The position numbers and the translations under genes were made by a program. This document shows positions 1-14,800 of a stretch of 33,245 bases of DNA, piece by piece. The first letter of the stretch is position 1. Each line of letters starts with the position of its first letter. The notes under the pieces were generated by a model. The model made no database searches, was not told the origin of the DNA, and was given only the letters and a program-made list of their open reading frames with translations. Source of the DNA: a virus; IMG/VR virus record IMGVR_UViG_3300010883_000209, positions 1-33,245 of that record; one strand, given 5' to 3'.

Positions 1-54
1 AAAAACGAATATCGTCGCCCAAACGACCCAAAGCGACGAAAACCGTCGGTGTAC

Positions 55-103
55 CTTGCCCGGCGCGACGAATTTCGTACACACAACTTGCCCGGCGCGA
101 CGA
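55..103. repeat. 17-bp direct repeat pair
   Basis: CTTGCCCGGCGCGACGA occurs exactly at 55-71 and again at 87-103, starting 32 bases apart. Because 32 is not a multiple of three, the copies would be read in different frames, which argues against coding here. A small inverted repeat, ACGAA-T-TTCGT, lies at 68-78 between them. They could be binding sites or recombination remnants; I cannot assign a role. Confidence 0.7.
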
Positions 104-333
104 TAACCGTAATGTACGCCCAATGCACACGACCAGGCTTTTTTACGAACATGCGAGCTAAAAAATTGGTCGAAAATTGGTGCCAAAAACGCTTGCATTG
201 TGCGCCTTGTGCGCCCATAGTGGTTGGCATGGTAAACGTAATAAATACAATCGCAATCGGGGTAAGGGGTACTACGCCTCGCGCACCTATTACGGCATTG
301 CCTAACACAGTTAATCGAAAGGTAATTTCGAAA

Positions 334-903
334 ATGGTAAACAAAGTAATAATTTACGATGGTGCCAAAGTGCTAACGGCCGCAAGGCTTCGCAAAATTG
401 GCGAATTGCTAGGCTTTAACGATAGCGTTAAGGCACGCGGGCAAGGTTGGGGCATAAAGTCGGTCGAAGTCGGCCATAGCTTGCCCGCAACCCGCCAACA
501 GGCGCACGCAATCGCGACAAACTACCTTGCGGCTATTGGTACGCCCGGCGAAGTAACAGGCACGCCGAATATACACTTCGCACCGGCGAAGTCGGCGGGC
601 AAGCTAACGTCGCATAAGCCGAATTACCACCCTCGCAACTTTGCGAAGCGCGTACCCGGTTACAACCTGCTATGCGCCGAACATGGCAAAATACAGGGCG
701 ATAAGTGCATCGCAGCTTGCCAATGGGGTATGGCCGACGCGGTAACGGGCAAATGGGCCGCCGACGCGCTAGCGCCGGTAAAGGCGAAAGCGCCGAAAGC
801 CAAAGCTACCCCGCGAGTAGTACGCACTAGGGGCAACGGCCCCGCTAACAAGCCCACACAGCCGAAAAAACCCGACTCGGGTAGTAAGGTAGCCAATGGC
901 TAA
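334..903 (+). CDS. Hypothetical basic protein with Ala/Lys/Pro-rich tail
   Basis: A 189-residue basic protein starting MVNKVIIYDG. The first two thirds look globular and include two cysteine pairs' worth of Cys near residues 115-135 (LLCAEHGK, DKCIAACQWG). The last 45 residues are Lys/Ala/Pro-rich and probably disordered. I recognise no family. The frame is open upstream to the window edge, so a longer form starting with GTG at 49 is possible. I chose the ATG at 334 because AAAGGT lies ten bases upstream, the same arrangement as the next gene, and because TGA cannot occur here, so open frames are long by chance. Gly uses no GGA, Arg no AGA, and Ser only TCG/AGC/AGT, as the DGA/TCH ban dictates. 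A hairpin follows directly after the stop. Confidence 0.6.
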   Translation: MVNKVIIYDGAKVLTAARLRKIGELLGFNDSVKARGQGWGIKSVEVGHSLPATRQQAHAIATNYLAAIGTPGEVTGTPNIHFAPAKSAGKLTSHKPNYHPRNFAKRVPGYNLLCAEHGKIQGDKCIAACQWGMADAVTGKWAADALAPVKAKAPKAKATPRVVRTRGNGPANKPTQPKKPDSGSKVANG

Positions 904-908
904 ATAGC

Positions 909-936
909 ATGGCCCCGGCGTAAATGCCGGGGCCAT
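909..936 (+). terminator. Strong GC-rich hairpin after the first gene
   Basis: ATGGCCCCGGC at 909-919 pairs perfectly with GCCGGGGCCAT at 926-936 around a 6-base loop. It begins six bases after the preceding stop codon. There is no T-tract, so it may be an attenuator, an mRNA-stabilising hairpin or a bidirectional structure rather than a full intrinsic terminator. Confidence 0.6.
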
Positions 937-981
937 TGCCTACACAAACCGCAACCCTAAGCCTACAAGGTACACAAAACC

Positions 982-1278
982 ATGCTTACAAGCACCAAAC
1001 TCGAACGACTAATCGATGCCGCCGAACATAGCGGGCCGGTAATCGTCGTACATGCTAACGAAAAATCGACAGGCAACAACGACGATAGCGCCAATTTCGA
1101 CAGGCTTTATGTTACGAATTGCTACCCAAAGCGCAGTACCAAAAACGGTTACGAATGGTACCTATTCGAAAGCGAAGGCGAAAAACAGCTATTTTGTATC
1201 GACATAGCCGACATACATTACGTCGGCTACGACTTAGGGCCGCGCCCTATGGCGGTTTATACCGCGATACTGCTATAG
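982..1278 (+). CDS. Hypothetical small protein
   Basis: A 98-residue mixed-charge protein (MLTSTKLERLIDAAEHSGPV) of unknown family. An N-terminal helix is followed by probable beta strands (RLYVTNCYP, YEWYLFESEG, QLFCIDIADI). AAGGT lies ten bases before the ATG and serves as a reduced Shine-Dalgarno, matching the arrangement of the upstream gene. It sits between the hairpin at 909-936 and the terminator at 1291, so it is either the last gene of a short operon or its own unit. Codon choice obeys the DGA/TCH ban and the stop is TAG. No function can be inferred. Confidence 0.65.
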   Translation: MLTSTKLERLIDAAEHSGPVIVVHANEKSTGNNDDSANFDRLYVTNCYPKRSTKNGYEWYLFESEGEKQLFCIDIADIHYVGYDLGPRPMAVYTAILL

Positions 1279-1290
1279 GTTAGCCCCTAC

Positions 1291-1323
1291 AAGCCGCCTA
1301 CACACCATGTAGGCGGCTTTTTT
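1291..1323 (+). terminator. Intrinsic terminator
   Basis: AAGCCGCCTACA (1291-1302) pairs over 12 bp with TGTAGGCGGCTT (1308-1319) around loop CACCA, followed by a run of six T (1318-1323). This is a textbook rho-independent terminator and closes the transcription unit of the DGA/TCH-free block. Confidence 0.9.
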
Positions 1324-1532
1324 GCGCCCATTGGTGTAAGGTACCGGCCCAAGTTATAAAGGCACCTAAAAACGCCAAACCGTTAGGTCTTGAAAACCCC
1401 AAATGTAACCAGAGTATGATTTCAGTACCTAAATTTCAGGTGGAAATGAGAGGTCGCGACAACTGACCCCCCCTTTGTATAAAAGAGTATTGAAAAAAAA
1501 TTTTATTTTTGAGAGGTAAAAACTTCCCTGTG

Positions 1533-1548
1533 GGAACCTATCGGTTCC
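1533..1548. promoter_or_regulatory. Inverted repeat, possible operator
   Basis: GGAACC-TATC-GGTTCC is a perfect 6-bp inverted repeat ending 15 bases before the -10 element at 1564, so it covers the -35 region. It could bind a dimeric repressor or form a small hairpin. The -35 itself is weak, which fits a regulated or activator-assisted promoter. Confidence 0.4.
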
Positions 1549-1560
1549 TTGTAAAGAGTG

Positions 1561-1569
1561 TGGTATACT
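1561..1569 (+). promoter_or_regulatory. Extended -10 promoter for the small-gene operon
   Basis: TGGTATACT is a TGn extended -10 with hexamer TATACT, predicting a start near 1576 and a leader of about 50 bases before the first gene. There is no good -35 hexamer at 16-18 bases, as is usual for extended -10 promoters. Confidence 0.55.
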
Positions 1570-1627
1570 GTGTGTACAAGTTAATTTGGGCAGGGAAATT
1601 AAGAAAACTTCCCACGTTTAAAAAGAA

Positions 1628-1885
1628 ATGGAGACGAAGAATAAAGAAATGACTAGAATGAGAATGTATACATTAAGCCAACATCATCACTTTGGGAATG
1701 TAGTAAAGCACTCACATGTATTACCATATATACCTGTAGACCGAGAATTATATCCTCTGGGCCAGTTTATTATTATGTCATGTAATATCGAAGGGCATCA
1801 TGAAGTTAATGAGCTTGTGCGTGATGATAATAATAATTATGTGATTATAAAGCATCAGGCAGAACATTTTGGGGTGACGTTATGA
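1628..1885 (+). CDS. Hypothetical small protein
   Basis: An 85-residue protein with many His residues (LSQHHHFGNVVKHSHVLPYI; later EGHHEVNELV and KHQAEHFGVTL) and probable beta strands. I do not recognise a family. The His clustering could bind metal but no defined motif is visible. The start is uncertain: ATG codons at 1628, 1649, 1658 and 1664 are all in frame and none has a clear Shine-Dalgarno. The stop overlaps the next start as ATGA, which indicates translational coupling. It is the first gene after the promoter at 1561. Confidence 0.6.
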   Translation: METKNKEMTRMRMYTLSQHHHFGNVVKHSHVLPYIPVDRELYPLGQFIIMSCNIEGHHEVNELVRDDNNNYVIIKHQAEHFGVTL

Positions 1886-2238
1886 ATATGAAAGAAGGAT
1901 ACGCCAAGATTAGATTATTGCCGGACAAATGGATAAGGATGGCTGATTTAGAAGGTGCATATGATGGACCAATATTAGGTTATGTAAGTGCAGCGAGACA
2001 ATTACGAGAAATAATTGAGGAGATGGATGGTAGTATTGAAGGATATACTCATGTAGAGGCTTTGAATATTATTGCTTCTCAGAACAATGGAGTAGTGAAA
2101 ATAGTAGACGCGATAGATAAGTTCTATGCAGCAGGTCTTTCACAATCTTCTCGTTCTAACCTTAGAGCACACATCCAACAGGTATTAACAAATGAAGATT
2201 TTAAAAGAGTTTCATATGGAGTATATAGGAAAAAGTAA
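1882..2238 (+). CDS. Hypothetical protein with possible HARE-HTH-like winged helix
   Basis: A 118-residue protein. The C-terminal half (about residues 50-118) runs from GYTHVEALNIIASQ through helices to a terminal FKRVSYGVYRKK. That layout, a first helix carrying an Ala-Leu-x-Ile pattern and a closing strand of the type F-x-R-V-x-x-G-V-Y, resembles the HARE-HTH/winged-helix fold found in some DNA-binding and restriction-related proteins. This is pattern resemblance only. The gene is coupled to the previous one through ATGA and is followed by further small genes, so a regulatory or DNA-binding role is plausible. Confidence 0.6.
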   Translation: MNMKEGYAKIRLLPDKWIRMADLEGAYDGPILGYVSAARQLREIIEEMDGSIEGYTHVEALNIIASQNNGVVKIVDAIDKFYAAGLSQSSRSNLRAHIQQVLTNEDFKRVSYGVYRKK

Positions 2239-2271
2239 TGACTAAGAAGCATAAAATACAGGAGGAGAAAA

Positions 2272-2448
2272 ATGGAAATAAGAATAATCAAAATGGGAAT
2301 ATCTTTAACATCACCATTTAGTGAACAGGTAGATCTTAGTTTTGATGTTAAAGATAAAGATACAGAAGAACTAAGAACTATATATGATGGATTAATACAA
2401 GGAGATAATGTTTACCAGTTAACCTTAACAAGATCGAAAGAAAAATAA
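2272..2448 (+). CDS. Hypothetical 58-aa protein
   Basis: A short acidic protein, MEIRIIKMGISLTSPFSEQV to TLTRSKEK, with a strong GGAGGAG Shine-Dalgarno just upstream (2261-2267) and a TAA stop. An N-terminal strand pair and a helix around KDTEELRTIYDGLIQG are predicted by eye. No family is recognised. The strong ribosome site, operon-like spacing and codon use matching its neighbours support a real gene. Confidence 0.6.
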   Translation: MEIRIIKMGISLTSPFSEQVDLSFDVKDKDTEELRTIYDGLIQGDNVYQLTLTRSKEK

Positions 2449-2483
2449 CATGGCTAACAAATTCGAGACGGAGGCACATAGAA

Positions 2484-2945
2484 ATGATAGTTAGGAAGTT
2501 AAGACATTGGTTTAGCATGAAGAGCCGCTTGGAGCGCGAGAAGGCCAATCTTGAGCGGGCACTCATTAACGTCACAGAGCGGCAAGTCTTGGCATCAGAA
2601 GTAGAGACACTACGCGCCAGAATGATCGAGCCTATTACCCCATCACAAGTAGTAGTAGAATCAATGCCTAAGACGATACTGGAGAAGGCAGGGTTAATCA
2701 AACGCCTAGATGGACGTACCTCTCCTGTCCAAGAAATGGCGTTTGCGATATTGGAGGAGTTCAACGGGGAATACTTAAACACTTCTCAGATTGCCGCCCT
2801 GATACAAGACAGGTTTGCCTACAAGATTAGTCCAGCGACTACAAGTTCGGCCATCCGATTACTCCGTAACCGAGGGGCTATCGCCAAGAAGCCAAAATCA
2901 TGGCTGTACACCTTCGTTATGATCCCACAAGAAGAAAAGGTTTAA
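2484..2945 (+). CDS. Coiled-coil plus winged-helix-like protein
   Basis: A 153-residue protein. Residues about 10-50 are charged and heptad-like (SRLEREKANLERALI, ASEVETLRARM), suggesting a coiled coil that could dimerise. Residues about 80-145 look like a winged helix: SPVQEMAFAILEEF, then LNTSQIAALIQDRF, then ATTSSAIRLLRNRGAIAK, ending in a strand, WLYTFVMI. The middle segment reads like a helix-turn-helix. GGAGG lies nine bases before the ATG. The product is probably a sequence-specific DNA-binding protein, but it could instead be an accessory packaging factor given its position before the terminase genes. Confidence 0.65.
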   Translation: MIVRKLRHWFSMKSRLEREKANLERALINVTERQVLASEVETLRARMIEPITPSQVVVESMPKTILEKAGLIKRLDGRTSPVQEMAFAILEEFNGEYLNTSQIAALIQDRFAYKISPATTSSAIRLLRNRGAIAKKPKSWLYTFVMIPQEEKV

Positions 2946-2964
2946 TACCTCATAGAGGATAGAT

Positions 2965-3291
2965 ATTAAATATATAATTACTGAATTTCAACTAGATAGT
3001 ATAAAGAGTATACGTCGTCAATTAAAGGAATTAGATAAAAAGCTTAAGAAAAGTGAACTAACAGATTTAGAGTATCTTAATGAAATTTGGATAATAGAAG
3101 GGCAATTTACTCAATACACTAGAGCAGCACAAACAATATATTGGAAAGGATTAAGGAGAGAAGAATATGAGCAAGAAAAACGAGGCCAAGAAGAAACTGC
3201 CAGTAAGGGAACGAAGGATGGTGTACACATTTCTAAGAACCGATCTGATCGAAGAAGTAGACATACTAAGCATAAAAACAAAGATTCCTAG
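2965..3291 (+). CDS. Possible 108-aa protein with ATT start, overlapping the next gene
   Basis: An open frame begins just after an AGAGGA ribosome site (2954-2959) with ATT as the only sensible initiation codon at the right distance; no ATG, GTG or TTG serves it well. The first 65 residues read like a real helical protein (SIKSIRRQLKELDKKLKKSE, then LTDLEYLNEIWIIEGQF). The last 40 overlap the ribbon-helix-helix gene in another frame and are very basic, so that part may be an overlap artefact. ATT starts are rare but known (infC). Without this gene the stretch 2946-3166 would be empty in an otherwise packed operon. Confidence 0.4.
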   Translation: MKYIITEFQLDSIKSIRRQLKELDKKLKKSELTDLEYLNEIWIIEGQFTQYTRAAQTIYWKGLRREEYEQEKRGQEETASKGTKDGVHISKNRSDRRSRHTKHKNKDS

Positions 3292-3427
3292 GCAGGAGTT
3301 GATTGATATTGCTATGGGTAGTTTTATTGGAAGGATTAGTAAGGGTAAAATAACAATTGATGAAATAAAGAAAGTGAGATCTAAATACGAGTTAATCCCA
3401 CAGGTTCGTAGACAAGCTAAAAAATAA
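3167..3427 (+). CDS. Small ribbon-helix-helix-like DNA-binding protein
   Basis: An 86-residue, strongly basic protein. A Lys-rich N-terminus (MSKKNEAKKKLPVRERR) precedes a strand, MVYTFLRTD, and two helices (LIEEVDILSIKTKIPRQELI and DIAMGSFIGRI). This is the strand-helix-helix order of MetJ/Arc-type repressors. AAGGAGAGAAG precedes the ATG. It is the last gene before a terminator, in front of the structural operon, so control of early or late transcription is the natural guess. Confidence 0.65.
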   Translation: MSKKNEAKKKLPVRERRMVYTFLRTDLIEEVDILSIKTKIPRQELIDIAMGSFIGRISKGKITIDEIKKVRSKYELIPQVRRQAKK

Positions 3428-3448
3428 GGTTCGTGTTGCAATACACGC

Positions 3449-3479
3449 GGGCGATATAAGGTACAGTCCTAATTCGCCC
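3449..3479 (+). other. Structured intergenic element
   Basis: GGGCGA (3449-3454) can pair with TCGCCC (3474-3479), enclosing a smaller AGG/CCT pairing (3459-3461 with 3468-3470). This imperfect two-part hairpin lies between the last small gene and the terminator at 3496. It could be an RNA processing site, a small RNA end or a protein-binding site. Confidence 0.3.
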
Positions 3480-3495
3480 CTGTGACCCTCCTTAA

Positions 3496-3529
3496 ACCCC
3501 CGGTGTTAGCGCACCGGGGGTATTTTTTT
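3496..3529 (+). terminator. Intrinsic terminator before the structural genes
   Basis: ACCCCCGGTG (3496-3505) pairs with CACCGGGGGT (3512-3521) around a 6-base loop, followed by a run of seven T. It separates the small-gene operon from the terminase operon. Confidence 0.92.
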
Positions 3530-3551
3530 ATTACCCCGTTGTGAATTACCA

Positions 3552-3560
3552 TGTTATGAT
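3552..3560 (+). promoter_or_regulatory. Extended -10 promoter for the terminase operon
   Basis: TGTTATGAT is an extended -10 (TGn plus TATGAT) between the terminator and the first structural gene. The predicted start near 3567 would leave a leader of only about nine bases before the ATG at 3576. The same TATGAT hexamer with TGn recurs before the holin-like gene. TTGTGA-18-TAAGAT (3539-3568) is an alternative pair. Confidence 0.45.
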
Positions 3561-3575
3561 GGTAAGATATATGAC

Positions 3576-4169
3576 ATGGGACGTAAGAAGCTTGCTGTTG
3601 ATGTTCGAGAGAAGCTATTTGTTCTATGGGTAGTACATGAGGGAAACTCTAACCGTGTAAAGCACGGAATGATTGACCTTCACGATATAACTCTTTCCCG
3701 TAATACAATAATCCGAACCGCAAGGCGTGAAAACTTCGACGCTCATGCGATGATTGCTCGCCAGAAGATGATGGCCGAGTTAGGTACCAATGTTCCCGAT
3801 GTAAATTCCATGCGAATGGTTAAGATCGGCATGGATATGTTGCAGTTTGATGAAATGCTTATCAAACAGCTTAAGATCTACATGCGAGGTGACAAGCGTG
3901 CAAGATGTGACATTAAAGATCTTAAAGGTGCTATGGAAGTCGCCAAATTTGTTTCATTAAATCTTACTTCCATGACAGGTGTTGATCCTAAAAGGAACGC
4001 GCTTGAGAAGGCTGCTGATGCTATGGGGCATAGTATTGCTAAAGATGCGCTTGAGATTCTTAAGGACGCCGGACCTGAAGAGTCTGCTAGAGTAATCAGC
4101 AAGCTTAAGGAAAATATCCTTAACGGTAGCAATGGCACGGTCATTGAGATACCGGCAGTACGTAGATAG
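3576..4169 (+). CDS. Terminase small subunit (putative)
   Basis: A 197-residue protein immediately before the terminase large subunit, sharing its stop base with the next start (TAGTG). The N-terminal 55 residues look like a helix-turn-helix (VREKLFVLWVVHEGNSNRVK, then DITLSRNTIIRTARRENF), the DNA-recognition element of small terminases. A helical middle and a C-terminal helix-rich part (AKDALEILKDAGPEESARVI) would form the oligomeric ring and contact TerL. No strong Shine-Dalgarno is visible before the ATG, and the promoter lies so close that the mRNA leader may be very short. Assignment rests on position, size and the HTH-like N-terminus. Confidence 0.7.
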   Translation: MGRKKLAVDVREKLFVLWVVHEGNSNRVKHGMIDLHDITLSRNTIIRTARRENFDAHAMIARQKMMAELGTNVPDVNSMRMVKIGMDMLQFDEMLIKQLKIYMRGDKRARCDIKDLKGAMEVAKFVSLNLTSMTGVDPKRNALEKAADAMGHSIAKDALEILKDAGPEESARVISKLKENILNGSNGTVIEIPAVRR

Positions 4170-5821
4170 TGACTACTACTTTCCAACGTAATTCTAATGA
4201 TCTATTACAGGAAATGGATCCTGAACAGATTAAGAGAGATTTAGCACAACAAAATATTATAATATGGACTGATGCTCATATTCGCACTGAAAAAGGTGTG
4301 AAGATGGAGTATCACAATCGCCCTTATCTTCCTCAGATTATGGAAGACTTTAGCGATCACATCGTAGTAACTAAGTCGGCTCAAGTTGGTCTTACCCAGA
4401 CTTCAATAGTTAAATCTCTTTTCGTTGCTGATACTGGTCATCGCACGATTATTTACACGTTCCCTACTAAAGGAGACGTGATGGAATTTTCTAAGGCAAG
4501 GTTTGGAGCAATAATTGCTGACTCAGCTTACCTTAGTACAAGAGTACAAGATACTAATTCTGCCGAGTTAAAGAAAGTAGGTGATTCACATATCTACTTC
4601 AAGGGTACGTTTACAGAACGCCAAGGGTTGTCTGTTCCTAGTGATGTAAACGTCCATGATGAATTAGACTTTAGTGACCCTAATGTCCGTGATGTCTATT
4701 CATCTCGCCTTGATGTTTCTGACTTAGCATGGGAGTGGGATTTTTCTACTCCGACTATTCCAAACTATGGTATTGATGCACTTTGGCAGAAAAGTGACAA
4801 GCACGTTTGGAGAGTCATTTGCCGAGGATGTGGTAAAGATCAGCAGATTAGTTTCTTTAAAAACATTTTCCGCAAAAAGGGCCACCCTTATTATTGGGGA
4901 TGTAGGAAGTGCGAAAAGACTATTGACCGTTCAGTTGGTCGATGGGAAGCAAAGTATCCCAAACGTCATATACGCGGGTATTATGTTCCTCAGTCGATTT
5001 GTGGAGTCATCAAGGCTGGTAAGCTTAAGAAGGTATATAAAGATGCTCCCAATAAGCCACTAGGAATGAAGAAGTTCTTCAACTATAACCTTGGTAAACC
5101 TTATGAATCTGGCGATACGTCGCTTACTAGGAAGCTTATCCTTGATCGAGTTGTTCCAGGCACAGTGGAACAGGGCAAGATCTTCTTTGGTGTTGATCAA
5201 GGTGATGTGCTACATCTCGAGATTACTAAGGAGATAGATGGTAGAAGAATTGTAGTAGGACTACATAAGCTTCACAGTTTTAAAGAGCTAGAAGATATGC
5301 TCAAGTATTGGAAGCCTTCTATTTGTGCGATTGACGCATTACCCAACCATCAAAATGCGTTAGATCTTGCTAAGGTTTATCCTAATGTTATAGTGGTATA
5401 CTACGATACAGGGATGAAGACTAGAAGCCTAGATAAAGATACTTGGACAGATGATCTTAAGAAAAGTAAGGTATCTGTACCAAGAACTGAAGCTATGGAT
5501 CATACCGCTTCTTTATGGCAAAGAGGTTTGGTGTCTATTGAGCACCACATAGGTCTTACTTCTATTGAAGAGTTTGCTGTACATATGAGCAATATCAAAA
5601 GAGATATTGTTGATGATGCGCGTACTGGTCAGCAGAAACCTATATGGAAAGCTGTTGGCCCAGATCACTATCGTCATGCTGATATATATAACTGGATAGC
5701 ACAACAGATTGCATCTAATAGTAGATCTTCAGAGATGGCTACTTCTGGACACAATACTAGTGAAGTTGGTTTTGCTGGTGCGGTTGGTAAGAATTTATTT
5801 GATGATAAGGAAATTTGGTAA
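4169..5821 (+). CDS. Terminase large subunit, GpA family
   Basis: A 550-residue packaging motor that cuts concatemeric DNA and pumps it through the portal. The ATPase part shows a deviant Walker A, KSAQVGLTQ (69-77), with the lysine at its start as in lambda gpA (KSARVGYSK), and a Walker B ending DELD (164-167). A four-cysteine zinc site follows (C218/C221 and C245/C248), typical of GpA-type terminases. The nuclease part offers D343 (FFGVDQG), D389 (CAIDA) and D505 in HADIYNW. The start is GTG, overlapping the TerS stop by one base. The next gene follows as TAATG. Length fits the family, slightly short of lambda gpA. Confidence 0.93.
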   Translation: MTTTFQRNSNDLLQEMDPEQIKRDLAQQNIIIWTDAHIRTEKGVKMEYHNRPYLPQIMEDFSDHIVVTKSAQVGLTQTSIVKSLFVADTGHRTIIYTFPTKGDVMEFSKARFGAIIADSAYLSTRVQDTNSAELKKVGDSHIYFKGTFTERQGLSVPSDVNVHDELDFSDPNVRDVYSSRLDVSDLAWEWDFSTPTIPNYGIDALWQKSDKHVWRVICRGCGKDQQISFFKNIFRKKGHPYYWGCRKCEKTIDRSVGRWEAKYPKRHIRGYYVPQSICGVIKAGKLKKVYKDAPNKPLGMKKFFNYNLGKPYESGDTSLTRKLILDRVVPGTVEQGKIFFGVDQGDVLHLEITKEIDGRRIVVGLHKLHSFKELEDMLKYWKPSICAIDALPNHQNALDLAKVYPNVIVVYYDTGMKTRSLDKDTWTDDLKKSKVSVPRTEAMDHTASLWQRGLVSIEHHIGLTSIEEFAVHMSNIKRDIVDDARTGQQKPIWKAVGPDHYRHADIYNWIAQQIASNSRSSEMATSGHNTSEVGFAGAVGKNLFDDKEIW

Positions 5822-7179
5822 TGGTACAAGCTAAGACTGCACTAGCTAAACAGAAAAAGGGTGACAAACCTGTTGTAGCAGAGATAGGCCAAACTCTTGC
5901 CACTCCTGGTTTTGGCGATTCCATGGATCTATGGGATAATGAAGGTATTCCTCTTCGAAAATTAGATGCTATGTTCCGTAAGGATGGACAAGTAGCTGGT
6001 TTGTATAGACTTATCACTACACCTATCCGAAGAGCAAGCTTTATAATACATCCTAAGCATAAGCGGGCGAACCGCGAAGCCAACTTTATAGCAGATATTT
6101 TTAATAACTCCTATGCAGATGGTGGGATGCGTATACCTATTCATCAGGTACTCGCAACAATACTACGCATGATGCTCGATGGATGGGCACCTCATGAAAT
6201 AGTGTGGCGCATAGATGAAGATGGCTTTGTTAGAGTAGACAAGATTGCTCATCGTCCTTCTAATAGTATGAGAGTTACGTTGAATAGTCATGGAGAAATT
6301 ACAGGTTATCATCAGAATCGTTCGATAGTAGCAAACCTCTTAACTGGTAAAGCTGGTGAGATACCTATTCCCGCGGATAAAATGCTTCACTTCGTATATG
6401 GGCGTGAATTTAATGCTATCTTTGGTAGGTCAATATTCACACAAGCTTTCTATCACTTTGAAAAGAAGCATAAGCTTTACTACATCAGCCATGTAGCTGC
6501 GCAGATAAGAGCGTTGGGACTTCGCATGGTTACGGCTCCAGCTGAAGAAAGTCCTGAAAATATAAAGAAATTCATGGATATGGTTGCGAAACTTGGTTTC
6601 AATAGCACTATCCTAGTACCTGATAAATATACCTTGGAACTATTGGCGAATAGTGCATCTCCTATAGATGCTATGCCGATGATCAATCATCATGATAGTC
6701 AAATGGGTAAGTCAGTTCTTGCTCAGGTTCTTGACTTGGGAGCTGAAGGTTCGTCCGGAAGCTTCAAGCTATCTGATACTCATCAGAATATTTTCATAGA
6801 TAACCTTGAATTGATATCTAGGGATATTGCAAGCGTTATCAATAATTTCCTTATTCCAAAGCTTATTGATTGGAACTTTGGTACAAAGAATTATCCTAAG
6901 CTAGAGTTCCTACCTTTTGATAAGAGAACTCAAACTACTATATCTTCTTTGTATCAGCGTATTGCTACAGGCCGTACTCTTAATACTACTCCTCAGTTCT
7001 TCCTTGAATTGGAGAAACAGGTCGCTGCTGATCTTAATCTCGATATTGACTATGAACCGATTGAGGATGAGACAATTGAGAGACTAGAGAAAAAAGTAGA
7101 AGAGCCTCTTAACAAACCACCAGCAGGTCAGGTCGCTCCGGCTACACCGGCAAAAACTGTTAATAATAAAAAGGAATAA
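5821..7179 (+). CDS. Portal protein (DUF935/Mu gp29-like)
   Basis: A 452-residue protein in the portal position between TerL and the capsid protease. It forms the dodecameric DNA channel at one capsid vertex. Supporting stretches are LITTPIRRASFIIHP near the N-terminus, a DGWAPHEIVWR segment typical of DUF935 portals, and a helical stem region with KMLHFVYGREFN and GRSIFTQAFYHFEKK. The C-terminal 40 residues are charged and Pro-rich (EEPLNKPPAGQVAPATPAK), probably disordered. I chose the ATG overlapping the TerL stop (TAATG); a TTG six bases upstream is also in frame. Combining a Mu-type portal with a lambda-type terminase is a mosaic arrangement. Confidence 0.85.
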   Translation: MVQAKTALAKQKKGDKPVVAEIGQTLATPGFGDSMDLWDNEGIPLRKLDAMFRKDGQVAGLYRLITTPIRRASFIIHPKHKRANREANFIADIFNNSYADGGMRIPIHQVLATILRMMLDGWAPHEIVWRIDEDGFVRVDKIAHRPSNSMRVTLNSHGEITGYHQNRSIVANLLTGKAGEIPIPADKMLHFVYGREFNAIFGRSIFTQAFYHFEKKHKLYYISHVAAQIRALGLRMVTAPAEESPENIKKFMDMVAKLGFNSTILVPDKYTLELLANSASPIDAMPMINHHDSQMGKSVLAQVLDLGAEGSSGSFKLSDTHQNIFIDNLELISRDIASVINNFLIPKLIDWNFGTKNYPKLEFLPFDKRTQTTISSLYQRIATGRTLNTTPQFFLELEKQVAADLNLDIDYEPIEDETIERLEKKVEEPLNKPPAGQVAPATPAKTVNNKKE

Positions 7180-7190
7180 ATTTACCCCCA

Positions 7191-7219
7191 TTGTCAATAC
7201 TTAAAATATCAAGTATCCT
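7191..7219 (+). promoter_or_regulatory. Promoter for the capsid genes, with internal inverted repeat
   Basis: TTGTCA (7191-7196), a 17-base spacer and TATCCT (7214-7219) form a sigma-70-like promoter, with a predicted start near 7226 and the ATG at 7248. Within it, ATACTT (7197-7202) and AAGTAT (7211-7216) form an inverted repeat that overlaps the -10, a possible operator. It sits in one of the few real gaps between structural genes. Confidence 0.5.
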
Positions 7220-7247
7220 TTGAATTAAGCATTAATCTGGAGATAAT

Positions 7248-8720
7248 ATGAGTAAAAGCCTTATACTGAAAGCAATAGCTGAGGAGCCGTGGGCAATCCT
7301 TCCTAAAAAAATGGAAACGATTATTCATGTCTCTACTCTACATGCTCTCGGTGCTAAATTTTCCGCTGAAGAAATTGCAGAAAAAATAGGTCCAATTAAA
7401 GCTGAGCAGGAGGGTAGGCGAAAGAATAGTGTTGGATCTGTAGCAGTCTTGCCGATTGTCGGCACTTTATCTAAACGTGCTAATATGCTTGAACAGTCAA
7501 GTGGTGGTGCGTCTACTGATGCTATAGGACAAGCATTCCTTCAGCTTGTCAATGATCCTAAAGTTAGTTCTATTATCCTCGATATAGACTCTCCTGGTGG
7601 TACTGTTGCTGGTACTACTGAGTTAAGTAATCTCATCTTTGAAGCACGTGGGAAGAAACCAATTATTGCTGTAGCCAACTCTCTTGCAGCTTCTGCTGCA
7701 TTGTGGATAGCTACTGCTGCTGACAAATTTATCGTAACACCTTCTGGATTGGTTGGATCTATAGGTGTTTTTACTGTACACAACGATATTTCCAAGAATC
7801 TTGAACAGGAGGGCATTAAGGCAACAATAATTAGTGCTGGTAAGAAGAAAGTAGATGGTAATCCTTTTGAACCTCTTAGCGACCGTGCTAAGAAAGATAT
7901 TCAAGCGATGGTTGATGATATGTTCTCAGAATTCGTTAGCACAGTAGCACGCAACCGCGGAGTTACTGCTGAATTCGTTATTGAGAACTTTGGTCAAGGC
8001 GACGTAATGAGCGCTGAGGCCGCAGTTAAAGTTGGATTGGCAGACAGTGTAGCAACACTACGCTCAGTGATCAAGGTTAGCCTTGCCACTTCTTCCAGCC
8101 GTAAATCCCAAAGTAAAACGAACAGTGTAACTAGAGATTCACGTTCGCATAAAGAAATTATAGTAGTAGATGCACAGGAGGGACATATGTCTAATAGTGC
8201 AAGTGGTGGTGGTGATCAGATCACCGAGAGTGAACTCCTCGAAGGTTTGAAGGAGTATGGTATCAATGCTGAAAGTCTTGTTGATGTTAAAGCTTCATTG
8301 AAAGATGGCGCTAAGGCAAAGACTGAACTTAAAGCATTGGAAGATAAGAAGCCCGTTCCTGCTTTGGCTTCTAGTGATATCGCTAAACTTGTTAAAATCA
8401 ACAAGGAACAGGCGTCTCGTATTTCCATTCTTGAGGACGCAAGTGCTAAGTCTATGGCTGTTGCTGCTGTAGATGGTTTTATTCGAGAGGGTAAGATCAC
8501 AACTTCTCAGAAAGATGCTTATGTCGAGTTGGCAGTAAGTAACACTGAGCAGTTTAATGCTATCATGGCTAATGCACCTGTTGTTATTGATATCGAGGAA
8601 AAGGGTGGTAATGAGGCGGAAGCGACTTATGGCACCGAAATGACTGAGGAGCAGGCAGCTATAGAATCTAAGAGAATCGTTGATGCATCTGGTGTCAATG
8701 GGAAGGGAGCTACTAACTAA
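7248..8720 (+). CDS. Prohead protease (S49) fused to scaffold domain
   Basis: A 490-residue protein that should cleave scaffold and capsid precursors during head maturation. Residues about 60-275 are an S49/SppA-like serine protease: VLPIVGTLSKRA, the oxyanion-region motif DIDSPGG (112-118), the catalytic Ser in NSLAASAALWIA (probably S149), GSIGV, and the catalytic Lys in AGKKKVDGNPF (199-201). Residues about 314-490 are a scaffold-like region whose VDGFIREGKITTSQKDAYV segment resembles the C-terminal part of Mu-like I protein. GGAG precedes the ATG. An internal in-frame start at 8187 should make the scaffold alone, as with lambda C/Nu3. Confidence 0.9.
   Translation: MSKSLILKAIAEEPWAILPKKMETIIHVSTLHALGAKFSAEEIAEKIGPIKAEQEGRRKNSVGSVAVLPIVGTLSKRANMLEQSSGGASTDAIGQAFLQLVNDPKVSSIILDIDSPGGTVAGTTELSNLIFEARGKKPIIAVANSLAASAALWIATAADKFIVTPSGLVGSIGVFTVHNDISKNLEQEGIKATIISAGKKKVDGNPFEPLSDRAKKDIQAMVDDMFSEFVSTVARNRGVTAEFVIENFGQGDVMSAEAAVKVGLADSVATLRSVIKVSLATSSSRKSQSKTNSVTRDSRSHKEIIVVDAQEGHMSNSASGGGDQITESELLEGLKEYGINAESLVDVKASLKDGAKAKTELKALEDKKPVPALASSDIAKLVKINKEQASRISILEDASAKSMAVAAVDGFIREGKITTSQKDAYVELAVSNTEQFNAIMANAPVVIDIEEKGGNEAEATYGTEMTEEQAAIESKRIVDASGVNGKGATN
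8187..8720 (+). CDS. Nested scaffold protein (Nu3-like) from an internal start
   Basis: A strong AGGAGGG site (8176-8182) sits five bases before an in-frame ATG inside the protease gene. Initiation here yields a 177-residue protein beginning MSNSASGGGDQITESELLEG. It contains a charged helical middle and the helical segment FIREGKITTSQKDAYVELA, ending in an acidic tail. This is the lambda Nu3 arrangement, in which the scaffold is made from within the protease gene in the same frame and shares its C-terminus. The product would template capsid assembly and be removed by the protease. The position of the ribosome site exactly at the domain border is the main support. Confidence 0.8.
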   Translation: MSNSASGGGDQITESELLEGLKEYGINAESLVDVKASLKDGAKAKTELKALEDKKPVPALASSDIAKLVKINKEQASRISILEDASAKSMAVAAVDGFIREGKITTSQKDAYVELAVSNTEQFNAIMANAPVVIDIEEKGGNEAEATYGTEMTEEQAAIESKRIVDASGVNGKGATN

Positions 8721-9367
8721 TGAGTGAAATAACTGAATGGTCAGATGAACAGATTCGAGCAATCCTGTTTGACAGGCAGGGTTTGACTAAGTATCCAGGT
8801 GGTCTGCCTGTTGCGGCTGGCGCTAGAGCTATTCGTGATGGAGATATTCTAGCCAAGGAAACTACTGGTAATACGGTCATCGTTTGTAAGCGTACAGAGC
8901 TTGCAGCCGCTGAGCCTCAGACTGAAACCTTAATTTTGGTCGATGATGCACATCCGTTTGAGGTTGCTGACGTTGTGCAGATTGGTGATGAGGCGACGAC
9001 TCTCAATGTTGTTAGTCTCAACTACGACACCAACGTAATAACGATGGGTGCTCTGACTCACGCTACTGGTCAGGATGTTGATGCAATATTCCACGTTGCT
9101 GCGCTTGCTCAGGACGATGCGTTGGGTATTGCACTGACAGGTGTATATAAGAGGGATGCAGCAGCTTCTGGTCTTAATGTAGATTTGGTTACTCCAGCAT
9201 CTACCGTGTTCTATGGTGACATTGCTATCACTGGTCGGTTCCGACTTGATCAGCTAAGGAACTTCCGCGCAGGTAATGTGATGGATACTTCTCTTGGTGG
9301 TCTTGAACTTGCTGATAACAATACCTATGTTATCTCAACCCCTAGCACCAACTACTCGCAGACTTAG
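8720..9367 (+). CDS. Head decoration protein (putative)
   Basis: A 215-residue protein between scaffold and major capsid protein, the place of lambda gpD. It overlaps the preceding stop by one base (TAATG). The sequence is beta-rich with turns such as KETTGNTVIVCKRTEL, VVQIGDEATTL and GALTHATGQDVDAIF, and ends VISTPSTNYSQT. It is longer than gpD (about 110 residues) and starts with a helical arm, SDEQIRAILFDRQG, that could insert among capsomers. It would sit on the outer surface and stabilise the expanded shell. Assignment is by position and composition. Confidence 0.7.
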   Translation: MSEITEWSDEQIRAILFDRQGLTKYPGGLPVAAGARAIRDGDILAKETTGNTVIVCKRTELAAAEPQTETLILVDDAHPFEVADVVQIGDEATTLNVVSLNYDTNVITMGALTHATGQDVDAIFHVAALAQDDALGIALTGVYKRDAAASGLNVDLVTPASTVFYGDIAITGRFRLDQLRNFRAGNVMDTSLGGLELADNNTYVISTPSTNYSQT

Positions 9368-9386
9368 AAAGGAGCGTTAATAAATT

Positions 9387-10382
9387 ATGTCTAATGAACT
9401 TTCGATTTTTGAACCTCGCGTACTTAACGGAGTAATCCGTGAGTTTGAGGGACCTGAGCAGATGGTCGGCCATCAGCTTGTTGGTACTCCTGAGCATGAT
9501 CCTGCTCCTACATGGGAGTATGATATTGAGCGAGAAGCGCGTGGTGCTCAGCTATCACATAACAGCTATGGCTCAGAAGCCCGTATAGTCGATCAGCTTC
9601 CTTACGGACATTTGGAAGGTGGTTACGCTTATCTTCGAGATAAGAAACAATTTAATCCCACTACTCTTAGATGGCTTCGAGAGGCTGGTAAGTCCCAGCT
9701 TGCACGTGGACAGGCAGAACGCCGAGTAACTAAGGAACTTCAGGCTCTCCGAATGGAGCACCTGAGGTCTGAAGAAATTGCTATCTGGGCTATGCTCACT
9801 GGCAGTTGGGCTTACACCCTTATGAATGGTGCGACCGTCACGGTTAACTACCGACTTCCTGCTGCTCACACTCCTACCGTTGGTACGGATTGGGGTGCTG
9901 GTGGTGACGATCCTGTTGGTGACCTCTTCGCTTGGAAGAGAGTTGTTAGTCGTGCAAGCGGCTTCCCAATCAGGCAGGCATGGTTGAACGGTGCAACCTT
10001 TGAGACCTTCTACAACCTAGCAGAGGTCTCTGCCAATCTGTCCGATGTCCAGAGGGATAAGTACAGGAATGAGGGTATGGTACCTAGGTTCCTAGGTATT
10101 GATTGGTTTGAGTATGATGGTGGCTATCAGAACGCTGCTGGTACCTTCGTACCCTATATTCCGGATGAGCGAATTATCTTTATCGCTCCCGGTGGAACAG
10201 ATAATCTGTCGATGAACTACGGTCCGTCAGCAGACCTTGGTGCGCCTGAGATGCACACTGGTCCATTTACTAAGTCGTGGGACGAGGAAGATCCTTCTGG
10301 TAGGCAGTTCTTGCTTGAGCAGAACTACATGCCGTTCTTGAAGAAGCCCTTCCAGATTCTCACGGCAGACACAACCGCTTAA
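9387..10382 (+). CDS. Major capsid protein (lambda gpE-like)
   Basis: A 331-residue protein that should form the HK97-fold shell. It follows the decoration gene and has an AAAGGAG ribosome site. Segments fitting lambda E-type capsid proteins include an N-terminal arm with Pro-rich PAPTWEYDIEREAR, a helical spine region (RVTKELQALRMEHLRSEEIA, followed by IWAMLTGSWAY), FPIRQAWLNGATFETFYN, and a C-terminal ERIIFIAPGG strand. Length is close to lambda gpE (341). Codon use is a little more G/C-ending than in neighbouring genes, as expected for the most highly expressed virion gene. Confidence 0.88.
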   Translation: MSNELSIFEPRVLNGVIREFEGPEQMVGHQLVGTPEHDPAPTWEYDIEREARGAQLSHNSYGSEARIVDQLPYGHLEGGYAYLRDKKQFNPTTLRWLREAGKSQLARGQAERRVTKELQALRMEHLRSEEIAIWAMLTGSWAYTLMNGATVTVNYRLPAAHTPTVGTDWGAGGDDPVGDLFAWKRVVSRASGFPIRQAWLNGATFETFYNLAEVSANLSDVQRDKYRNEGMVPRFLGIDWFEYDGGYQNAAGTFVPYIPDERIIFIAPGGTDNLSMNYGPSADLGAPEMHTGPFTKSWDEEDPSGRQFLLEQNYMPFLKKPFQILTADTTA

Positions 10383-10395
10383 TAGGGGTGGAACG

Positions 10396-10812
10396 ATGGC
10401 AAAACGATATAGGATGCTAGTGACCGGTCTAACGGTCAAAGGCTTTGGTGTTGTCACCAAAGGTGATATTCTTACAGAGGCACAGATGGGGGAATTGCCC
10501 CTAAGTCTTAAAGAACAGAAGGCGCACTTTAAGGGCGGGAAAATTAAATACGTTTTGATTGGTAGTCCAGAGGAATCAGTAATTAGGGATGTGCTTGAAG
10601 GCACTATGTCCGATGAAGATATTATCTCTGCTGTGCAGAGCGATATCCCAGGTGCTCCTACTGTTAGCGATGCTGATACAAGGCTGAATGATGGTGTTCC
10701 TGAGCACCATCAACACAATGAAGAAGATGGTCTTGATAAAGAAGAGGCTAAGGCAAGGAAGAAAATAGCTAAAGCTAAGAAGACCAAGAAGACCAAGAAA
10801 TTAAAGTCGTAA
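10396..10812 (+). CDS. Head-associated protein with lysine-rich tail
   Basis: A 138-residue protein just after the capsid gene, with AGGGGTGG before its ATG. The first 55 residues form a small beta-rich domain (RYRMLVTGLTVKGFGVVTKG). The middle is acidic, and the last 26 residues are very basic (EEAKARKKIAKAKKTKKTKK). Similar small proteins with a conserved first domain lie between capsid and connector genes in many phages, but I cannot name a family. The cationic tail could contact packaged DNA or the inner capsid face. Confidence 0.6.
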   Translation: MAKRYRMLVTGLTVKGFGVVTKGDILTEAQMGELPLSLKEQKAHFKGGKIKYVLIGSPEESVIRDVLEGTMSDEDIISAVQSDIPGAPTVSDADTRLNDGVPEHHQHNEEDGLDKEEAKARKKIAKAKKTKKTKKLKS

Positions 10813-10843
10813 GGCGCTACTAGCGCATCGTAAGGGGAGAGGA

Positions 10844-11371
10844 ATGGGCGTTCTAGGAGTTCTAACAGTTCAGCAGCTTGATATTCGTTCAAGGGTTAAC
10901 TTTGAAACGGGTAATGATGATGCTGATCAAGAGGCCAAGACAATGTGGATTGATCTAGCTGAAGACATGATGAATATGTTTGAGCTAGATACCGCGCTTG
11001 TAGGCTACACCAATATCATGGCTTGGGTCGCCCAGAAACTTGTAGAACATCTATTCCTCTCCAATGCAGAAGATAATGTACGAATTGCTAACAATAATTT
11101 TAAGACGGAACGATTAGGTTCGTATTCATACACTAAGGGTCCTATGGCTGCATCAGATAGGTCCATATTTGAAACGCTGCCTGATATTATCAAACCTGTA
11201 TTCGCTAGGTTCATTAAGAACCGACATCCAATTGGAATAACAACATCCGTCTTTCATCAAAGGACACACCTTGATGGAGACGTTGCAACTACAGATTGGC
11301 TAGATCACGAAGTACCTTGGGCAGATCTCTCATCAGCAGAGATTGACAAGAGACTCGTTGGAGTTAATTAA
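10844..11371 (+). CDS. Head-tail connector (adaptor, gp6/gp15-like)
   Basis: A 175-residue helical protein carrying the adaptor signature: a long helix pair (KTMWIDLAEDMMNMFELD and IMAWVAQKLVEHLFLS), then FKTERLGSYSYTKG, which matches the pattern E-R-(I/L)-G-x-(Y)-S-Y found in SPP1 gp15/HK97 gp6-type adaptors. It would form a ring under the portal. A GGGGAGAGGA ribosome site precedes the ATG, and a small palindrome, GCGCTA-C-TAGCGC (10814-10826), lies in the upstream gap. It shares its last base with the start of the next gene. Confidence 0.75.
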   Translation: MGVLGVLTVQQLDIRSRVNFETGNDDADQEAKTMWIDLAEDMMNMFELDTALVGYTNIMAWVAQKLVEHLFLSNAEDNVRIANNNFKTERLGSYSYTKGPMAASDRSIFETLPDIIKPVFARFIKNRHPIGITTSVFHQRTHLDGDVATTDWLDHEVPWADLSSAEIDKRLVGVN

Positions 11372-11817
11372 TGGCTAATTTTATCTATAATGTAGCGAAA
11401 GCCGGATTAGCCGATGGTAGCATTGATTGGGATACGCATACAATCAAAGTTCTATTGCTTGAATCCGATGCAGGGGAAAATAAAGACAATGCGACAATTA
11501 CAGGTTTACTTGTCGGATCAACTGAACTCACCAGTACCGGATATGCAAGACAGACCCTCGCGGGTAAAGCCGTTACACAAGATGACCCTAATGATAGGGC
11601 TGAACTCGATGCCACAGATCCCACTTTTACAAATGTTCAGCAGCTTGCTGCGGAGACTATAACGGGATTTGTTGTTTACAGACATGTGACAAACGATACT
11701 GATAGTATCCCTATCCTTCATGTAGATACTGCAACAGGATTACCTATTACTCCCAATGGTTCTAATATAGCAATCAATATTAACGCTGAGGGTCTTATTC
11801 AGTTGGCGGACGCCTAA
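11371..11817 (+). CDS. Phage structural protein, head-fibre-like (putative)
   Basis: A 148-residue beta-rich protein of a type often found among head-neck genes: an opening ANFIYNVAKAGLADGSIDWD, a strand TIKVLLLESDAG, GYARQTLAGKAVTQDD, and a closing pattern ETITGFVVYRHVTNDTDSIP. The exact virion role of this group is unclear; small head fibres or fibre-attachment subunits are the usual suggestions. It overlaps both neighbours by one base and lies directly before the giant fibre gene, so it may serve as the base on which that fibre is mounted. Confidence 0.6.
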   Translation: MANFIYNVAKAGLADGSIDWDTHTIKVLLLESDAGENKDNATITGLLVGSTELTSTGYARQTLAGKAVTQDDPNDRAELDATDPTFTNVQQLAAETITGFVVYRHVTNDTDSIPILHVDTATGLPITPNGSNIAININAEGLIQLADA

Positions 11818-14800
11818 TGTCATTTCAAATCCCAACACTTGATGACGCAGCTTTTCCTGATCAGGCTGCTGTAGATCCTGTAGACTTTAACATACTTGTT
11901 GCCGCCCATATAGGCACCGGCGTTATAAGCGGCTGTGCTGTGACGGCTCAAGGTGTTCCCAGCATGTCCGTAGACATAGCTGCTGGCGAAGTCGTGGTCG
12001 GTAAGGTATCGGTAACGGTTAGTAGTGGCTCTGTGCTTCTAGGAGCTGCTCATGCAACAGACCCGAGATTTGATCTAATAGTATCAGATAATCTTGGTGT
12101 TAAATCTGTTGTAGCAGGCTCAATTGTAAGCTATCCTGAGTTTCCTGCTATTCCTGTGAATAGTGTTGTACTTGCATCTGTTTATATTGGTGGTGCTGAT
12201 ACAGACATTGATGCGAATCAGATTATTGATAAGCGCGTTCTTGTTGGAGCATACTTTAAGGATTCGGCTCTAATATACGACGACGGCAATTCCGAGTGGA
12301 CTGTCCAGACTAAGAATGTTGCTGGTACACTAACTGATAGAGTAAAGGTACAGGCAAATAGTAATACTCCTCATCTAGATATCACAACTATGCCGATTAT
12401 TTGGTCGGCTGCTGGACGCGCTGTAGTAGGTTCTCAGTATAGCCATGGAAGAGATGATGGATTAAAGCTACACGGTAATGTTCCTACAGGTGCATCTTTT
12501 GAATGGTCAGTTAATGATGTAGCTAAAGTTACTCTTGATGTAACTTCAATGATCTTAGCTGCTACTGTGTCCTTGACTGCTGTAGGAGGGGGATCTCTAA
12601 CAGGAACATGGACCGACTTAGGAACAGTGACAACGGTCGATATTAATGGAGGGACTATAGATGGTTCTATCATTGGTGGAGCAACGCCCGCTGCTATCAC
12701 TGGTACGACCATTGATGCTAATACAGATTTCACTGTTGGTGCATTGGTCATTACTAATGGAGTAATTACTGATGCTACTGGTCTTTTAATAACTGCTGTT
12801 CTTACTACAGTAAGTGGTGGTTCCCTCACAGGTACTTGGACAGATCTTGGTACAGTCACTACAGTAGATATCAATGGTGGGACTATTGATGGTTCTATAA
12901 TAGGCGGAACAACACCAGCCGCAATTACAGGAACTACGATAGATGCTACGACTGACGTTACCATCGGTTCATTAGTAATCACTGATGGAGTCATAACAGA
13001 CGCTACGGGCCTCTTAATTACTGCTGCGCTTACATCGGTAAGCGGTGGCTCGCTCACAGGTACGTGGACAGATTTAGGGACAGTCACTACTGTAGATATT
13101 AATGGGGGAACTGTAGATGCTTCCATTATTGGTGGAGCAACTCCCGCAGCAGGAACATTCACGGCATTAATAGCTAACACAAGTCTTGTTATTAACGCGA
13201 CTACTTCGATAACATCAATTCTTGATGAAGATGCGATGGGATCAAATAGTGCGGTCGCTCTTGCTACTCAGCAAAGTATTAAAGCATATGTTGATGCTCA
13301 GGTTGCTACAGCCGATACTCTTGCTGAAATATTAGCTATCGGTAACATTTCTGATGGTACCAATCTTATTATCTCTGTTGGCGATGTACTAACTACAGAT
13401 ACAATTAGTGAAACAGGTGTTGGTACGGGTGTTACTATAGATGGTGTCCTAATAAAGGATGCAGGCATTACTGCGACTGGTGGTGGTTCTCTAACAGGAA
13501 CATGGTCTGATCTAGGCACAGTCACTACTGTTATAATCAACGGCGGTACAATTACTGGTATCACTGACATTACCGTAGCTGATGGAGGAACAGGACGTTC
13601 TACTAGCACTACTGCTTATGCTCTTTTGGCTGCTGGTACAACTGCTACAGGAGCACATCAAACTCTAGCCGCTGGTGCAACTACAGAACTCCTTGTGGGT
13701 GGTGGCGTTGCTGCCCTTCCTGTGTGGACAACTGCTACTGGTTCTGGGGCACCAGTGAGGGGAACAAGTCCAACTTTGGTAACCCCGGCTTTGGGCACTC
13801 CTGCTAGTGGTGTTGCTACAAATCTTACAGGAACAGCATCAGGATTGACAGCAGGAAATGTCACTACAAATGCTAATCTAACAGGACATATAACTTCTAC
13901 AGGTAATGCCGCTGTACTTGGCTCATTTACTTCGGCTCAATTAAAGACGGCGTTGACTAATGAAACAGGTTCTGGCTCAGCAGTATTTGCGACATCACCT
14001 GTCTTAGTTACACCAGCTTTGGGTACTCCCGCTAGTGGAGTCTTAACCAATGCTACTGGTCTGCCAATAGCAACTGGCGTTAGTGGATTGGCGGCAAATA
14101 TGGCAGCTTGGTTAGCTGTAGCATCTAGCGTCAATCTTATTGCGGTGGTTAGTGATGAGACTGGTTCAGGTTCTCTTGTATTTGCAACATCACCAACTCT
14201 AGTGACTCCTGCATTGGGTACACCCGCGAGTGGTGTCATGACCAATGTGACGGGGACAGCATCTGGTCTAACAGCAGGGAATGTCACCACAAACGCCAAT
14301 CTAACTGGTCATATTACTTCTAGTGGTAACGCTGCTGTTCTTGGTTCGTTCACTTCCCTTCAGTTAAAAACGGCCCTAAGTGATGAGACTGGCTCTGGGG
14401 CAGCTGTCTTCGCAACGTCACCAACCTTGGTTACTCCGGTATTGGGAACACCAGCTAGCGGAGTTGCTACCAACTTAACAGGGACGGCATCAGGGCTAAC
14501 TGCGGGTAATGTCACAACTAATGCGAATTTGACTGGTCATATAACCTCTGTAGGTAATGGCGCTGTCCTTGGGTCTTTCACTTCATTACAATTGAAGACT
14601 GCATTGTCTGACGAGACTGGATCAGGGTCATCGGTATTTGCTACATCTCCAACCTTCATTACACCTGTTTTGGGTACCCCTGCAAGTGGAGTAGCTACAA
14701 ATCTCACAGGGACAGCTTCAGGATTGACTGCGGGCAACGTCACAACAAACGCGAACTTGACTGGTCATGTAACTTCCACAGGAAATGCTGCCGTACTTGG

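Follow-up and report, generated by a model that had tools for sequence, protein, structure and literature searches.

Phages that avoid restriction sites typically show partial depletion of palindromes of 4–6 bases, and in phage T5 the pre-early region is free of EcoRI sites, the host enzyme being known. Phage CAjan reportedly carries a 7-deazaguanine DNA modification placed in a GA context. A survey of restriction-site avoidance in phages explains why short words are depleted on both strands by evasion of enzymes that recognize these sites (PMC6286503). The chlorella virus nickases Nt.CviPII (/CCD) and Nt.CviQXI (R/AG) are virus-encoded and recognize degenerate non-palindromic trimers (PMC7019647), and the Ssp phosphorothioate system, a host defence acting at CCA, combines a 3-base non-palindromic motif with nicking (PMC9646914). 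The stretch of viral DNA analyzed here, 33,245 nucleotides from IMG/VR record IMGVR_UViG_3300010883_000209 (hereafter, the window), begins with a block that has in common with the surveyed phages the depletion of short words on both strands.

In our recount of window positions 1–1387, the words AGA, GGA, TGA, TCA, TCC, and TCT (together DGA/TCH) each occurred zero times, while the remaining 58 trinucleotides were all present. GA always lies within CGA (51/51) and TC always lies within TCG (30/30), as the first-pass annotation had counted. Its judgement that chance could hardly produce such a pattern is borne out by a probability of ~10^-33 (10^-33.4) for 81 of 81 sites obeying, given the frequencies of C before G and G after C. 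Under an order-1 Markov model built from the block, ~50 forbidden words are expected against the 0 observed; without the rule, one such word is due approximately every 28 bp (~50 in 1.4 kb). Stretches without DGA/TCH reach at most 78 bp in the rest of the window and 120 bp in other viral DNA totalling 144 kb. The forbidden words are depleted beyond composition on both strands and control DNA is normal. Since no other tri- or tetranucleotide shows a comparable depletion, the target is precisely DGA/TCH; CAG/CTG is only mildly low (14 vs. 25). A codon effect was considered and rejected, because the non-coding DNA also obeys and synonymous codon reshuffling of the two genes, P1 and P2, breaks the rule (mean 31 forbidden words, minimum 16, in 2000 trials), in keeping with the earlier description of a strand-symmetric, frame-independent rule. 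The block is a real and very strange feature, whose mechanism we infer below.

Scans of IMG/VR with P1 and P2 peptides recovered a second viral contig of 14.8 kb, L003 (IMGVR_UViG_3300009786_002482). Window positions 1–10947 align to L003 3852–14797 with 99.6% identity over 10.9 kb (an L003 position minus 3851 gives the window position); the two records are nearly identical and the samples may be related. L003 extends to the left past the window start and shows ordinary phage-like DNA flanking the block on both sides. The whole block measures 1432 bp (L003:3806–5237), of which the window holds the right 1387 bp (window 1–1387, unstranded) and L003:3806–3851 supplies the left end. Of the extent first assigned, the right end is correct and the left end was set by the window start; the leftward look that the first-pass annotation had proposed shows the rule holding in L003 up to the left edge.

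Both edges are sharp. The final violation before the block is a TCT at L003 3803, and the first one after it is a TCT at window 1388, followed by TGA at 1391 and AGA at 1411, beyond which forbidden words return to a normal density of about one per ten bases. The flanks contain 12 violations in 99 bp on the left and 11 in 100 bp on the right, against 0 in the block, and the GC content shifts from ~0.50 in the block to 0.36 outside the right edge. The rest of the window (1388–33245, plus strand) is ordinary phage DNA encoding TerL of the GpA type, a Mu-type portal, and structural genes; forbidden words have normal frequencies there, so the carrier shows no genome-wide depletion. The block forms an island between genes of this tailed phage, and a search with TerL for phages related to the carrier returned L003 only. 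A 1470-amino-acid protein with many VTGTASGLTAGNVTTNANLTGHIT-type repeats, partly GC-rich relative to its surroundings and apparently a tail fibre, is encoded at window 11817–16229, and to the left of the block, L003:1484–1720 and 2933–3124 encode two small orphan phage proteins that are paralogues (..GTSGxELxLxQ..).

With regard to signs of a transposon or integron, no recombinase was seen, and the edges carry a weak inverted match and an imperfect direct repeat. The inverted match, found by eye, pairs CCTTAACGGT with ACCGTTAGG (L003:3813–3822 and window 1379–1387) and could be due to chance, as ACCGT recurs in the repeat array described below. The direct repeat, TAGAATTCAGGTGGA / TAAATTTCAGGTGGA, matches at 13 of 15 positions and lies just outside both edges (L003:3766–3780 and 5280–5294, the latter being window 1430–1444). 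The related TTCAGGTGGA is also present at window 16356 and 28241, and these direct repeats are possible recombination or regulatory sites.

The two records differ by 24 substitutions in a 139 bp segment at window 765–903 (plus strand), which encodes the P1 tail, by 2 elsewhere in the block, and by 9 in 9.56 kb outside it. Both versions of the segment are without forbidden words, while 24 random substitutions would be expected to create ~5.3 violations (probability of none, 0.001–0.002). The segment looks like one exchanged with a second rule-obeying source. Because two diverged versions both obey, at least two alleles or kinds of rule-obeying DNA exist in nature.

P1 (window 334–903, plus strand) encodes an orphan protein of 189 amino acids with a variable Ala/Lys-rich tail, and P2 (982–1278, plus strand) encodes one of 98 amino acids. 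Profile and tblastn searches found no relatives of either in Pfam, PHROGs, or phage or plasmid records, and no nickase or methyltransferase was matched in these two genes. Degenerate-peptide scans of viral and genome contigs, for some of which the alignment was padded with invented conservative variants solely to loosen the patterns, returned L003 only, and blastn of the block against plasmids and phages added no further match. Single-sequence AlphaFold models reached pLDDT values of 39 (P1) and 45 (P2), too poor for use. All 24 Asp and Glu residues of the two proteins are preceded by a codon ending in C, the pairs EE, KE, KD, and QE are absent, and the base after a codon ending in TC is always G. 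The stop codons are TAA and TAG, with TGA unused; the absence of TGA also accounts for spuriously long frames, among them the open one that precedes P1. Both genes have a natural appearance and seem adapted to the rule.

Upstream of P1, four copies of GCGACGAnnnYCGT form a non-coding array at window 5–110 (unstranded); three are direct and recur every 32 bp (33, 65, and 97), and the fourth is inverted (reverse complement, 5–18). In L003 they lie at 3856–3869 (minus strand), 3884, 3916, and 3948. The array is perhaps operator- or iteron-like. A promoter-like site, TTGCAT-17-CATAGT, whose spacer holds two TGTGCGCC repeats, was read by eye at 194–222 (plus strand) and was not among the sites returned by a consensus promoter scan; the canonical TTGACA is impossible under the rule because it contains TGA. 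Similarly, AGGAG is barred because it contains GGA, and the candidate Shine–Dalgarno (SD) sequences, assigned by context on the plus strand, are AAAGGT upstream of P1 (319–325) and AAGGT upstream of P2 (965–971). P1 is followed by a terminator-like hairpin, GGCCCCGGCGTAAATGCCGGGGCC, with a weak T tail (910–935, plus strand), and P2 by an inverted repeat, AAGCCGCCTACA..TGTAGGCGGCTTTTTT, resembling an intrinsic terminator (1291–1325, plus strand; L003 5141–5169). The SD AAGGT, the TAA/TAG stops, and the placement of Asp and Glu suggest long-term adaptation to the rule. Motif scans with CTTGCCCGGCGCGACGA, the TGTGCGCC pair, and the GCGACGAnnnYCGT pair hit unrelated contigs only, all of which break the rule. 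The TTGTGCGCCTTGTGCGCC pair of the promoter-like site recurs, in one identical context, at L012:4641, L013:8594, and L014:912; these three phage contigs are low in GC and break the rule.

The sharp edges, the different composition, the orphan genes, and the second allele point to import from a rule-obeying donor, and we consider it probable that the block was recently acquired from a replicon that avoids DGA/TCH throughout its genome because an enzyme selects against these words. The donor would be some other mobile DNA, a co-infecting phage or satellite being the likeliest and a plasmid a possibility, and its DNA would have entered the intergenic space of the tailed phage horizontally and recently. 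In the donor genome, selection against the non-palindromic trinucleotide 5'-DGA-3' / 5'-TCH-3' would be absolute on both strands, most simply because of an enzyme that recognizes so short a site in double-stranded DNA. Such an enzyme might be a donor-encoded nuclease or nickase for destroying host DNA, word avoidance taking the place of methylation in marking self, or a defence of the host, restriction or modification-dependent, whose 2–3 base site tolerates CGA/TCG. We favour the donor-encoded nuclease; the data fit a host defence alike. CGA and TCG may be spared because the enzyme reads the third base or because the donor's host methylates the C of CG. Among the causes that the first-pass annotation had listed, a replicon of unfamiliar biology combined with avoidance of a TCH-acting enzyme fits best with the sharp edges, the two alleles, and the adapted signals and proteins; the GA-dependent modification system on the same list is neither favoured nor disfavoured by the data. 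The heavy cost that a total ban would impose on a whole genome counts against such a donor, and neither a donor genome nor a second rule-obeying element appeared in the viral, genome, phage, and plasmid scans made.

It is unlikely, by comparison, that the rule is kept in place in a functional part of the phage itself, such as first-injected early DNA with anti-restriction genes, which, like the pre-early region of T5, must lack the sites of a host enzyme until protection sets in. The block would suit such a part in that it lies between genes, ahead of the structural genes, carries two small genes of early type served by a promoter-like site and a terminator of their own, and keeps the rule in both alleles. 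However, the edges are sharp to the base, violations resume at normal density right outside them, even in the flanking non-coding DNA, and the block's composition differs; moreover, 24 of the 26 block substitutions fall in the one 139 bp stretch, which looks more like the import of an allele than like slow evolution in place. Avoidance of a CRISPR PAM or a primase start trinucleotide, in place of a nuclease site, is quite improbable. In its favour, PAMs and primase sites span 2–3 bases and act on both strands, and motif depletion has been reported in phages of CRISPR hosts (PMC4246573). PAM depletion is normally partial, however, since a protospacer match is also required; we know of no PAM or primase site that corresponds to TCH/DGA, and a primase needs its sites for replication.

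A mutational origin, in which a TC-context deaminase erased TCH on both strands while methylation shielded the C in CG, is very improbable, contrary to one proposal of the first-pass annotation. Deaminases of this context exist, DddA acting on TC in double-stranded DNA, and the block has an excess of AA/TT dinucleotides (243 vs. 165). The process is nevertheless disfavoured because its expected product, TTH, is not enriched relative to TTG (observed/expected: TTA 56/72.8, TTT 85/85.8, TTC 35/29.3, TTG 67/55.1). In addition, the genes and hairpins are intact, 0 of ~50 sites are left, and the positions of Asp and Glu depend on which codons were chosen beside them, something that mutation by itself would not bring about. 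The first-pass annotation had also suggested looking nearby for a deaminase, methyltransferase, or nickase gene; none turned up among the products scanned from genes within or adjoining the block. As for an assembly chimera or artificially recoded DNA, an extremely improbable source, the window does start inside the block, at an assembly end. L003, however, runs through the block, has phage DNA to its left and right, and carries a different allele of it; a chimera formed at a contig end, or another assembly artefact, was rejected on this ground. The orphan genes with their terminators look natural, and a recoding scheme with a DGA/TCH rule is not known to us.

Beyond import from a rule-obeying donor, the preferred reading, there is a wider claim on which our own judgement is evenly balanced. 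An undescribed lineage of phages or other replicons may have entire genomes without DGA/TCH and distinguish its own DNA from foreign DNA by avoiding these words; an enzyme that it carries, or meets in every host, would attack DNA bearing the trimers, and its proteins, promoters, and ribosome-binding sites would have been rebuilt around the ban. If this is true, the ban dictates which amino acids can be neighbours, which stop codons are used, and how Shine–Dalgarno and promoter sequences are spelled, and a genome can use the absence of a word as a self signal in place of chemical marking. It would also indicate an undescribed enzyme with a 2–3 base target; with its specificity given beforehand by DGA/TCH, such an enzyme is open to direct search and assay. 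To our knowledge, no enzyme has TCH/DGA specificity and no sequence avoidance is stronger than a total three-letter ban. No account of such a rule was found in the literature searched, in agreement with the first-pass annotation.

Among the known systems, the chlorella virus nickases Nt.CviPII and Nt.CviQXI and the Ssp system are the closest by site type. The nickases have the very type of site needed here, but their sequences differ. Chlorella viruses carry cognate methyltransferases, whereas the block would be protected by sequence avoidance and such a gene was not found among the genes scanned. The Ssp system has another motif and senses a mark instead of the bare word, and ssp genes were not seen here. 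GA, the context of the CAjan-type modification, is the core of the block rule too, but modifying phages keep GA while the block loses it unless C precedes, and no DpdA/TGT homologue was found in the genes scanned. In the case of T5, one part of the genome is free of a restriction site, as in the block, but the site is a 6-base palindrome and the region has no base-sharp edges. In contrast to ordinary restriction-site avoidance, three non-palindromic trimers and their complements are wholly absent from the block, with CGA and TCG left in place.
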